From Promethearchaeia archaeon (GTDB taxonomy: Archaea; Asgardarchaeota; Lokiarchaeia; Sigyniarchaeales; SOKP01), in NCBI GenBank assembly GCA_029856235.1, contig JAHQWP010000221.1:1-64000 (forward strand): a DNA stretch of 64,000 bases. Reading direction: 5' to 3'. A program made the translations under genes and the position numbers. This document shows, in pieces, positions 3,470-15,654 of this stretch. The number at the start of each line of letters is the position of its first letter. The first letter of the stretch is position 1. Under the pieces are notes generated by a model. That model was not told where the DNA came from. It saw only the letters and a list, made by a program, of their open reading frames with translations, and made no database searches.

Positions 3470-4336
3470 ATGAGTCCATCTGATCAAACATCAATCCCCC
3501 CTGAAACACTTGCTCACCCCTTAAATGATATGTTAAATTTAAATCGATTCATTTTTTGTCCGGGTTGTTTAATTGGAACGGTAATTACATCAATTGCAAG
3601 TTGTTTAAAAGAAAGAGGTCTTACATCTAAAGATTACGCCATAGTATCTGGTATAGGATGTACTGGTCGATCAAGTGGATGCTTTAAAGCACCAGCCTTC
3701 CATACTACACATGGGAGAGCTATACCTTTTGCTACGGGTATAAAATTAGCAAATCCTAAATTAAAGGTTATAGTTCTATCGGGAGATGGAGATCTTTTTG
3801 CTATAGGTGGGAATCATTTTATCCATGCTGCTAGAAGAAATATAGAGATAACAGTTCTCTGTATAAATAACAATATATATGGAATGACTGGAGGACAAGT
3901 AGCCCCAACAACTCAAATTGGAGACATCACCCAAACAACACCTTATGGAAATGTGGAATCTCCTTTCAATTTAGTAAATCTAGCGGCGGCGTCAGGAGCG
4001 ACATATGTTGCTAGATGGCCTGGATATGACACAATTCGATTACAAAAAAGTATTTTTAAATCTATAGACAATCAAGGATTTAGCTTTATAGAAGTGCTTG
4101 CTCCTTGTTTTGTTCAATACGGTTCTAAAAATAAATTAGGCGATGCTGTAGAGATACTAGAATGGTTAAAAAAACAAATTAAAATTAAAGTTGATTGGGC
4201 CCCTAGTGAAGCAACTTTTGATTTCAAGAGAGGGATTATAATATGCGGGGAATTTGTTGAGGAGACTCGGGAAGGATTTAGCGAAAAAATAGAACAAGTA
4301 CGAATTAAAGCACAAGATAAGAAAATTAATAATTGA
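3470..4336 (+). CDS. korB: 2-oxoacid:ferredoxin oxidoreductase beta subunit (KorB-like, canonical domain order)
   Basis: CPGC...GIGCTGR...SGDGDLFAIGGNHFIHAARRNIEITVLCINNNIYGMTGGQ: ThDP GDG-(x)n-NNN in normal order. Confidence 0.9.
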   Translation: MSPSDQTSIPPETLAHPLNDMLNLNRFIFCPGCLIGTVITSIASCLKERGLTSKDYAIVSGIGCTGRSSGCFKAPAFHTTHGRAIPFATGIKLANPKLKVIVLSGDGDLFAIGGNHFIHAARRNIEITVLCINNNIYGMTGGQVAPTTQIGDITQTTPYGNVESPFNLVNLAAASGATYVARWPGYDTIRLQKSIFKSIDNQGFSFIEVLAPCFVQYGSKNKLGDAVEILEWLKKQIKIKVDWAPSEATFDFKRGIIICGEFVEETREGFSEKIEQVRIKAQDKKINN

Positions 4337-12319: not shown

Positions 12320-13333
12320 GTGAAAATTCAAATGTTAACATCAGAACACATTAAAGAAATTTTAAAGGATCATACAATTAATCTACGATTCCATGCACGT
12401 GGAGGACAAGGAGGTGTAACGGCTTCGAATCTCTGTGTGGAAGCGTTTTATGGATACGGAGTTTGTCAGCCAAAATTTGGTGCGGAACGTATGGGAAGTC
12501 CTACTGAAAGCTATGTTAGACTTTCTGCGAATGTCGATCTAGTAAGATCAAACGAACAGGTATACGGACCTCACTTTGTTTCTGTTTTAGACGCTTCTTT
12601 GTTATCTGAAGTAGACGTAACCGCAGGTATCCCAAAAGGAGGGTGGTTAATTGTCAATACGGAGATGGATCAATTAATGATTCAAGATACAGTTAAACGC
12701 AAGGATATAAATATCGCGACTATAGATGCAACTCGAATTGCTCTTGAAGTTTTAGGGAGAAATATTACGAATACTATTATATTAGGGGCTTTAATTCGCG
12801 TATCTCATCTATTTACGCTTGAAGAGCTATCTGATGCGATAATGAAGCGGTTTAAAGGAGAATTAGCTGGAAAAAATATTCAAGCTATTAAGCAGGCGAT
12901 TGAAGAAACATGTATTTATGATATGGAAATCGAACCAGATTTCACCGTTGACAGCAAAGTTCCATGGCAACAAGTTGAATTAGGATTACCGGGCTATAAG
13001 GACTTGGATAAAGCAGGAGTATGGTATCGAGATGAACAAATCATTCCTGTAGGAAGCGACCAAGTGAATACGGGTACTTGGGGTGAATGGGAAGTATTAT
13101 GGGATGAGGAAACCTGCACTGATTGTGCTCTTTGTTGGCACATTTGTCCTGATTTTGCTATAATAAGAAAAAAAGGCGAAGATGGATTATGGCACATGGC
13201 AGGAATTGACGCATTTCATTGTAAATCCTGTTTAAATTGTTTGGAAATTTGTCCTGTAAATGCAATTGATAAAAAAATGAAACAGGGACCTGCAGCTTGT
13301 GCAGTACCCGAAGATCAAGAAGGAGGTAATTAA
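12320..13333 (+). CDS. pyruvate/2-oxoacid:ferredoxin oxidoreductase gamma-delta fusion
   Basis: LRFHARGGQGGVTASNL and FGAERMGSPTESYVRLS (gamma), then CTDCALCWHICP and CKSCLNCLEICP (delta ferredoxin) in one ORF. Confidence 0.9.
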   Translation: MKIQMLTSEHIKEILKDHTINLRFHARGGQGGVTASNLCVEAFYGYGVCQPKFGAERMGSPTESYVRLSANVDLVRSNEQVYGPHFVSVLDASLLSEVDVTAGIPKGGWLIVNTEMDQLMIQDTVKRKDINIATIDATRIALEVLGRNITNTIILGALIRVSHLFTLEELSDAIMKRFKGELAGKNIQAIKQAIEETCIYDMEIEPDFTVDSKVPWQQVELGLPGYKDLDKAGVWYRDEQIIPVGSDQVNTGTWGEWEVLWDEETCTDCALCWHICPDFAIIRKKGEDGLWHMAGIDAFHCKSCLNCLEICPVNAIDKKMKQGPAACAVPEDQEGGN

Positions 13334-13334
13334 A

Positions 13335-14564
13335 ATGTCAATAGAACCAATGAAATTATTCTTTAAAGAGATAAAAGAACCAATTGAAACTACTATGATA
13401 GGGAATTATGCCGTCGCTGGAGCAGTTACTCAAACTGATCCCGATGTTATTTGTGCCTTTCCAATTACGCCACAAACTCAATCTGTCGAAGGTCTATCTG
13501 ATGTAGTTCATCAAGGAAGGTTAAAAGCAGCTTTTGTAAATGTAGAATCAGAATTAGCAGCTATATCCTATTCAACTGCAGCAAGTGCAGTAGGAGCTAG
13601 AACATTCACGGCAACGGCATCTCAAGGGTATTTACTCATGACAGAGGCTTTACCTATGGCCGTTGGTTGGAGAGTTCCATTAACAATGATGATTTCAGCA
13701 AGAGCATTTAATTCACCTAATTTATCAATATGGAACTCTTGGGAATTCACTCAAACAAATTCTGAATTAGGTTGGAATACTATCGTTTCTGAAAATGTTC
13801 AAGAGACATATGATGCTGCTATCCTAGCAGTTATGATCTCGGATAATTCTTTATTCCCTACTATGTTTGTACATGATGGATTTATTATTTCGCATTCAGT
13901 TCAGAAATTAACTTTAATACCTGATGAAATCGTTCGAAAATTAACTCCCAAGAAACCTAGGCATACAATTAATACAAAGAGACCTGGAACGTGGGGAGGT
14001 ATAGTTACCCCAAGCTTTTTTATGGAAGGGAGAAAAGGTTTGGATGAAGCGAAAGAACCTGTTTTAGGAATTATGGAAAAAGCGTTTGAAGAGTTTGGGA
14101 ATGCAACTGGAAGAAAATATAACTTGATTGAGACCTATAATTTAGACAATCCTTCAAAAACAGCTTTTCTCACAATGGGTTCCATGTGTGGAAATATAAT
14201 TAGTTGGATGACCAAGAATAAGGATGTTGGATTAATCAAGATTAGAGCTTTTAGACCATTCCCTCACGAAAAACTGCAAAAAATTGTAGAGGAACACAAT
14301 ATTGAGAAATTGATTATTTTTGAAAAGTCTGATTCTTTGAATGGTATGCTTCCACCATTTTCGATGTCGATTGCTTCAGCTCTATATCCATTAGGCACCA
14401 CATTCAGAAGTTTTATTGTTGGATTAGGCGGAAGAGATGTAACACGAGATGAATTTGATGTAGCAAAGAAGAAAATGGAATCTATCAATGACATGAAAGG
14501 TAAATTGTATATGTATCTCGGTGTAAGGGAATCAAAAGAAAAAATAATGGGGGTTGATATCTAA
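13335..14564 (+). CDS. porA: pyruvate:ferredoxin oxidoreductase alpha subunit
   Basis: CAFPITPQTQSVEGL, VESELAAISYSTAASAVGARTFTATASQGYLLM; ATG at 13335 preceded by AAGGAGGT (track ORF starts at 13299). Confidence 0.9.
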   Translation: MSIEPMKLFFKEIKEPIETTMIGNYAVAGAVTQTDPDVICAFPITPQTQSVEGLSDVVHQGRLKAAFVNVESELAAISYSTAASAVGARTFTATASQGYLLMTEALPMAVGWRVPLTMMISARAFNSPNLSIWNSWEFTQTNSELGWNTIVSENVQETYDAAILAVMISDNSLFPTMFVHDGFIISHSVQKLTLIPDEIVRKLTPKKPRHTINTKRPGTWGGIVTPSFFMEGRKGLDEAKEPVLGIMEKAFEEFGNATGRKYNLIETYNLDNPSKTAFLTMGSMCGNIISWMTKNKDVGLIKIRAFRPFPHEKLQKIVEEHNIEKLIIFEKSDSLNGMLPPFSMSIASALYPLGTTFRSFIVGLGGRDVTRDEFDVAKKKMESINDMKGKLYMYLGVRESKEKIMGVDI

Positions 14565-14565
14565 A

Positions 14566-15654
14566 ATGTCGCAACCAGAACGAAACACTATTAAGTTTGA
14601 AGATATCCTTGCTCGAGATGAAAAATGCAATGTATTATTCTTTAATTATGACAACGAAGCTTTCATGAATACAGGTATTCAAGAGTCAGGTGGAACACCC
14701 CCATATGCCTCAACGACTACTGGTCCTGGTGGAGAAAAGATACCTGGAAAGATTGGAGTAAAGCAGGATTTAGTTACTCCATTTGCGTTCTATGGTACAA
14801 AATCACTTTTCTTAGCAACGGCTAATCCTGCATTTCCTAATGATTTTATGGGTAAAGTAGCTGATGCATTAAAAACTAATGGCTCAGCGTTCATTCAATC
14901 TTATTCCGATTGTATGAGAGGATGGCGTCATGGAGCAAGTGATGCTTTGAAAATCTCAAAATTAGCTACTGAATGCGGCTACTGGCCACTATACACTATA
15001 AGAGTAAAAGACGGAGTGCCAACTTTCTCATATTATCGAGGATTAGATATCGATAAAGAGAAATTTGTTGAATATCTTAAATCTATGGGTCGGTTTAGAC
15101 ATTTATTTAAACCACAATTCCTAGAAAAAGAAATCGATGAGCTTATTTATTTTACTGAACAAAGAAATTTGAGATTAAAAGGTCTAATTGAGCAATTTGG
15201 AGCAGAAAAACCTGTCGATGTATATCGCGTTAACCGAAAAACTTTAGAACCTCAACAACACTTACATCCTGGTCATGGGTTATGTCCTGGTTGTGGAGCT
15301 GGGATGGTTTTAAACCAATTAGCAAGTGCTGCCACAGCTGTGACCGGAAATAATATCATTTATGTAAACAATACAAGCTGCTCTGAAGTTTCAACATCAA
15401 AAGATTTCGTGACTTCATGGAAAGTACCCTGGGTACATCATCTTTTCGAATCAGGAGCTACTATCGCAGATGCTATAAGTACTACCTATAAAATCCTCAA
15501 ATCAAAGGATCAATTTAGCGGTGAAATCCCTTATGTAATCCACATCGGTGGAGATGGTTCTACCTACGATATCGGGTTTCAATTCCTTAAAGCAGCTCTC
15601 ATAAGAACAAGTTCGTTCGTTGAAATGAATGAATATTTAACTAATCAGAAATAA
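14566..15654 (+). CDS. porB: pyruvate:ferredoxin oxidoreductase beta subunit, circularly permuted
   Basis: All canonical PorB segments are present but in swapped order: N-terminal NVLFFNYDNEAFMNTGIQESGGTPP...SDCMRGWRHG...YLKSMGRFRHLF, then C-terminal LHPGHGLCPGCGAG...NTSCSEVSTS...SWKVPWVHHLFESGA...HIGGDGSTYDIGFQFLKAAL. Continuous reading frame. ATG at 14566. Confidence 0.88.
   Translation: MSQPERNTIKFEDILARDEKCNVLFFNYDNEAFMNTGIQESGGTPPYASTTTGPGGEKIPGKIGVKQDLVTPFAFYGTKSLFLATANPAFPNDFMGKVADALKTNGSAFIQSYSDCMRGWRHGASDALKISKLATECGYWPLYTIRVKDGVPTFSYYRGLDIDKEKFVEYLKSMGRFRHLFKPQFLEKEIDELIYFTEQRNLRLKGLIEQFGAEKPVDVYRVNRKTLEPQQHLHPGHGLCPGCGAGMVLNQLASAATAVTGNNIIYVNNTSCSEVSTSKDFVTSWKVPWVHHLFESGATIADAISTTYKILKSKDQFSGEIPYVIHIGGDGSTYDIGFQFLKAALIRTSSFVEMNEYLTNQK

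Follow-up and report, generated by a model that had tools for sequence, protein, structure and literature searches.

In the window, the 64,000-nucleotide stretch of Promethearchaeia archaeon DNA analyzed here, the last gene of a three-gene porGD-porA-porB operon is a circularly permuted porB: the two halves of one ancestral gene are in swapped order, and the old termini are joined. Judged by its motifs and neighbors, the product is very probably a functional beta subunit of a pyruvate-type 2-oxoacid:ferredoxin oxidoreductase. The ATG sits 1 base past the porA stop, and one open frame runs to a stop within 14566-15654 (Table 1). A preliminary description of this DNA gave the protein 363 residues; it has 362, the larger figure including the stop codon.

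Table 1. Features of the operon and of related loci. Positions are those of the window unless a locus is named.
Feature	Position	Strand	Basis
porGD, gamma subunit fused to delta (2x[4Fe-4S] ferredoxin) domain	12320..13333	+	PF01558, Fer4, TIGR02175, and PorD models
porA, alpha subunit (POR_N + PFOR_II), ATG at 13335	13335..14564	+	PF01855, PF17147
porB, circularly permuted beta subunit, 362 aa	14566..15654	+	Frame; PDB and NCBIfam matches
porB new N-terminus, residues 1-20, absent from canonical PorB at this place	14566..14625	+	9bt4_C alignment begins at residue 22-23
porB natural C-terminal half, residues ~21-215	14626..15210	+	Residues 119-282 of 9bt4_C
YDNEAFMNTGIQ, N/T-G part of ThDP/Mg motif, residues 28-39	14647..14682	+	(Nearly) invariant in aligned homologs
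Cys116 (C-x-R-G-W), fourth ligand of proximal [4Fe-4S] cluster by homology	14911..14913	+	65/65
Junction of natural C-terminus to natural N-terminus, residues ~208-231	15187..15258	+	Between the two matched stretches; canonical N-termini compared
porB natural N-terminal half, residues 229-347	15250..15606	+	Residues 6-115 of 9bt4_C
CPGC (Cys240, Cys243), cluster ligands by homology	15283..15294	+	65/65
Cys272 of C-S-E-V, cluster ligand by homology	15379..15381	+	65/65
GDG, first part of ThDP/Mg motif, residues 329-331, now near C-terminus	15550..15558	+	65/65
porB new C-terminal tail, residues 348-362, and stop	15607..15654	+	Past end of 9bt4_C match
Mini-inserts in permuted porB (approximate)	L073:3028-3060, L081:6106-6138, L101:6109-6143, L093:6118-6150
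Duplicates of porB 3' end	L040:2066-2230, L057:6123-6276, L070:3592-3946, L067:8151-8251, L095:1-398 and 1292-1689, L078:2930-3064

The swapped order is seen most directly against solved beta chains. A phmmer search of PDB chains aligned the protein with the PFOR beta subunit 9bt4_C (E = 1.9e-46 for the whole sequence) in two stretches, query residues 229-347 corresponding to residues 6-115 and query residues 23-193 to residues 119-282, and the oxalate oxidoreductase beta chain 5c4i_C gave a likewise swapped pair (1.7e-43). Both halves thus match known structures in reversed sequence order, and the earlier reading of a single frame carrying all PorB segments in swapped order is upheld. The NCBIfam model for pyruvate synthase PorB (NF008819) also matched in two stretches (206 bits, E 6.7e-61), and a family search of the organism's own genome placed model positions 118-291 ahead of 4-122. 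The 206-bit score falls below the curated cutoff of 405 bits, as do those of canonical Asgard PorB proteins (358 to 400 bits). Segments here run NTG - CxRGW - CxGC - CxEV - GDG, versus CxGC - CxEV - GDG - NTG - CxxGW in the canonical order. The KorB encoded at 3470-4336, proposed as an internal control, serves as one because it reads in normal order and matches in one stretch. A chance match is ruled out by the E-values and by 65 distinct homologs of the same order, and the idea that a pair of genes was mistaken for one, with the lost halves close by, can be dismissed, as no extra C-terminal half lies beside the operon.

As the preliminary description stated, the new ends are within the GDG-x(n)-N ThDP/Mg motif. 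The break corresponds to a 3-residue gap at residues 116-118 of 9bt4_C, and the cut falls in a turn of about three residues, after the GDG helix and before the strand that runs into YDNEAFMNTG; the GDG and N-T-G parts of the motif are both present, divided between the two chain ends. Tails of about 20 residues (N-terminal) and 15 residues (C-terminal) have been added at the new termini. At the other end of the rearrangement, the natural C-terminus is joined to the natural N-terminus as described, but the "short linker" ...EKPVDVYRVNRKTLEPQQ is no new spacer: it consists largely of PorB's natural N-terminal lead and can be compared with MIELQRVNLKEISKLEPALTGGHRLCAGCG in a canonical Asgard PorB.

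The CxGC pair, the CxEV cysteine, GDG, and the CxRGW cysteine occur in 65/65 distinct permuted proteins, and with them all four proximal-cluster cysteines (C116, C240, C243, and C272); YDNEAFMNTGIQ occurs in 62 of the 65, the remaining 3 being insert-bearing genes described below. Informative pairs of diverged genes gave dN/dS values of 0.02 to 0.17, and one nearly identical pair gave 0.32 (dS was saturated in two pairs of the set). The permuted porB is under purifying selection, and a decaying pseudogene is ruled out by these ratios and the motif conservation.

We sought the same domain order in 232 genomes of the phylum, taking E <= 1e-55 as a strong match. It was found in 70/86 genomes of the same class as the source and in 0/146 of other Asgard classes, and nearly all of the 70 matches cover the full length. 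Because the source genome is a metagenome bin of 226 contigs, reads from a canonical porB, or from a porB duplicated in tandem, might have been joined in the wrong order, and the preliminary description named misassembly among the things that would undo its reading. The survey makes such an artifact close to impossible, as the order is the same in 70 genomes whose assemblies are unrelated; in Sigynarchaeota, Helarchaeota, and other deep-branching relatives it persists at protein identities as low as 52-53%. It is found in four single-contig genomes (G042, G049, G052, and G159; 3.3 to 6.0 Mb) and in the closed chromosome CP070831.1, and the junction is long and conserved. No canonical-order porB was seen at this locus in related genomes; where a porB is present behind this type of porA and porGD, it is always permuted.

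The exceptions within the class are of several kinds. Fairly complete genomes without the permuted porB (G031, G035, G150, G152, and G158) also lack this type of porA and porGD. In G005 and G014, porA lies at a contig end with no permuted porB, and G007 and G145 retain porGD without it; fragmentation may explain these four. One species (G032) has lost the subunit: porGD and porA are intact, while porB is reduced to a degraded remnant of its start (L173:2727-2830), followed by two reverse-strand genes, one of them nucleotidyltransferase-like by eye. Beyond the phylum, a scan of 85,462 species by exact peptide words, which would miss a diverged permuted PorB in other phyla, returned Asgard loci and one record titled Bathyarchaeota (L086, WJJB01000299.1). 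That record carries a Sigynarchaeota-type permuted porB and is probably a mislabeled bin. A plasmid search gave only 5 records, all below 60% identity and counted by similarity, not segment order, and no permuted PorB was found in the viral contigs searched.

When the halves are aligned in register, the tree groups all permuted proteins in a single clade (100/100) on a long stem (1.23 changes per column), and branching within the clade largely tracks the families of the class. The simplest history is one event in or before the class ancestor, followed by mainly vertical descent. Since Asgard genomes hold several PorB paralogs, the C-terminal half of one might have been fused to the N-terminal half of another. 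Such a chimera is very improbable, because trees built from either half by itself recover the same clade and rank the closest canonical proteins identically (L122, L129, L127, and L131). Permuted genes usually arise by tandem duplication and subsequent loss of the outer halves, and this one probably did too: porB would have been duplicated in tandem in an ancestor of the class and then lost the first N-terminal half and the last C-terminal half. No duplication intermediate was found. Transposition of one half is the less likely course, though one to be taken seriously given that porB 3' ends have been copied downstream in L040, L057, L070, L067, and L095 and that elements occur at NTG|IQ. Against it, the junction comprises a complete natural C-terminus and a nearly complete natural N-terminal lead, which is what tandem duplication predicts.

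Mobile elements seem to favor the NTG|IQ region of porB as an insertion site. Four permuted porB genes (L073, L081, L101, and L093) carry inserts of 30, 30, 31, and 31 nt, respectively, three of them at NTG|IQ and the other some 7 nt farther downstream. Every insert brings in a stop codon or breaks the frame, and once it is precisely excised, NTG[I/V/L]QESGGTPP or a close variant is regained. The inserts can form a hairpin, and the three that were aligned share with their exons a predicted helix-bulge-helix fold with four compensated pairs, a pattern that archaeal bulge-helix-bulge introns such as the one in Cbf5 (PMC2738675) would lead one to expect. These mini-inserts are probably archaeal mRNA introns of very small size, or else bypass elements. 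Selenocysteine at the in-frame TGA of L073 and L081 is disfavored because the two sister inserts are 31 nt long and shift the frame. The genome G034, of the same genus as L101 (G026), has no mini-insert. Next to this site, a canonical PorB of another Asgard class (L125, G058:C48; 693-aa open reading frame) bears at MN|TGIQ an intein-like insert of about 350 residues that begins CLSLDTFIMTEDG and ends NFIADGIVVHN.

Other rearrangements were seen in and around porB. In E44_bin85, the gene following porA breaks off about 115 nt into porB, at the NTG codons, and other DNA takes over (L100:5994-6108); a full-length permuted porB is found on a different contig that lacks porA (L079:6001-7086), where its downstream flank resembles those of relatives. 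At several loci the porB 3' end (GDG region) is duplicated about 0.7 to 2.5 kb downstream with different DNA between (Table 1), the copies in L070 and L095 spanning most of the N-terminal half; these are recurrent local duplications, or insertions bringing their own porB 3' end. About 5 kb from a permuted operon, on the same contig, lies a 501-aa open reading frame (L131, G009:C144) for a canonical PorB whose N-terminus is extended by about 190 residues of ferredoxin-like and Fe-S sequence.

AlphaFold2 models built from 25 and 48 permuted homologs reached pTM values of 0.81 and 0.83 with mean pLDDT values of 73 and 75, the latter a moderate confidence. Confidence was low in two loops, 33-72 (after NTG) and 278-294. 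The PFOR equivalents of both contact the cofactor and the alpha subunit. All Foldseek matches at E<=0.001 were PFOR or OOR without exception, with 9bt4_C at the top. The superposition was partial (TM 0.39/0.48, rmsd 9 A) because Foldseek compares chains in sequence order, which leaves only part of a permuted chain superposable, so that these low TM-scores speak neither for nor against the whole PFOR domain VI fold.

By homology to PFOR, PorB would form an enzyme together with PorA and the fused PorGD. PorA and PorB would jointly bind ThDP, with GDG and N-T-G of PorB holding Mg and the diphosphate and its four cysteines holding the proximal [4Fe-4S] cluster. The complex is expected to oxidize a 2-oxoacid with CoA and to pass the electrons to ferredoxin, two further clusters in the fused delta domain acting as the relay. 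The chain would run from the turn after the GDG helix to the old C-terminus, on through the old N-terminus, and back to the GDG helix at its end; the parts of the ThDP motif, being at opposite chain ends, must therefore meet by folding. With the cut in a short turn and the old termini joined, the geometry should remain intact.

In the alignment, the PorA partner retains PITPQT, ESE, and the arginine of R-A, while every permuted lineage checked has NSWEF or similar in place of the usual D-H-x-D segment. The retained motifs of both subunits, taken with this change, point to a 2-oxoacid:ferredoxin oxidoreductase whose substrate would be among pyruvate and other small 2-oxoacids; the substrate class is probably pyruvate-type. 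The long stem and the altered PorA segment allow for a different substrate. The source organism also carries canonical PorA/PorB sets, so the permuted complex would be an additional enzyme. These same features (the long stem, the NSWEF-like letters, and the canonical PorA/PorB in the genomes) might instead mean that the permuted PorB has left 2-oxoacid oxidation and serves as a structural or regulatory subunit, or in different ThDP chemistry with its own PorA. We consider this improbable in view of the retained ThDP motif, cluster cysteines, and PorA motifs, and of the retained fused ferredoxin domain. Gene neighborhood yields no functional clue, as the flanks of the operon differ between families.

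The nearest relatives of both halves, at about 34 to 42% identity, are a clade of canonical Asgard PorB proteins (L122 of G047, L129, L127, L123, L131, and L125). They share the motifs and an operon with PorG, PorD, and PorA but have the order CxGC...GDG...NTG...CPRGW, and in the operons checked PorG and PorD are separate open reading frames, unlike the fused PorGD here. The best solved match, the PFOR beta subunit of Methanosarcina acetivorans (9bt4_C), has the fold and the ThDP and cluster motifs in common with the permuted PorB but differs in its canonical order, its chain ends being the natural termini. The oxalate oxidoreductase beta subunit of Moorella thermoacetica (5c4i, 5exd, and 5exe), which gave both a two-stretch match and a fold match, also has the canonical order and acts on a different substrate.

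Circular permutation itself is well known; what is new is a permutation through the ThDP motif that is fixed across a class. To our knowledge, no natural circular permutation splits a ThDP motif, and no report of a permuted PFOR, OFOR, or ThDP enzyme was found in the open full-text literature, the scope of which leaves out subscription papers and preprints. A circularly permuted ATP-grasp (PMC3597751) and the permuted MalS amylase (PMC10223318) likewise have swapped parts of one ancestral chain but belong to other families, and the former proved unrelated when considered as an earlier report of a circularly permuted PFOR.

2-Oxoacid:ferredoxin oxidoreductases have been proposed as the energy-yielding step of amino acid breakdown in Asgard archaea and their last common ancestor (PMC7015854). 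Lokiarchaea are in culture (PMC7015854, PMC9834061), and the permuted PorB is therefore open to testing now. It is a case that profile annotation scores under a curated cutoff, and it provides a clean, rare genomic marker of its clade. More tentatively, the ancient, single, class-wide permutation through the ThDP motif, possibly the sole natural one in the ThDP superfamily, may have gone hand in hand, in the class ancestor, with a new range of substrates or a new mode of alpha-beta assembly. A catalytic subunit permuted throughout a class amounts to a natural experiment in how freely the ThDP fold tolerates cuts at the cofactor site.
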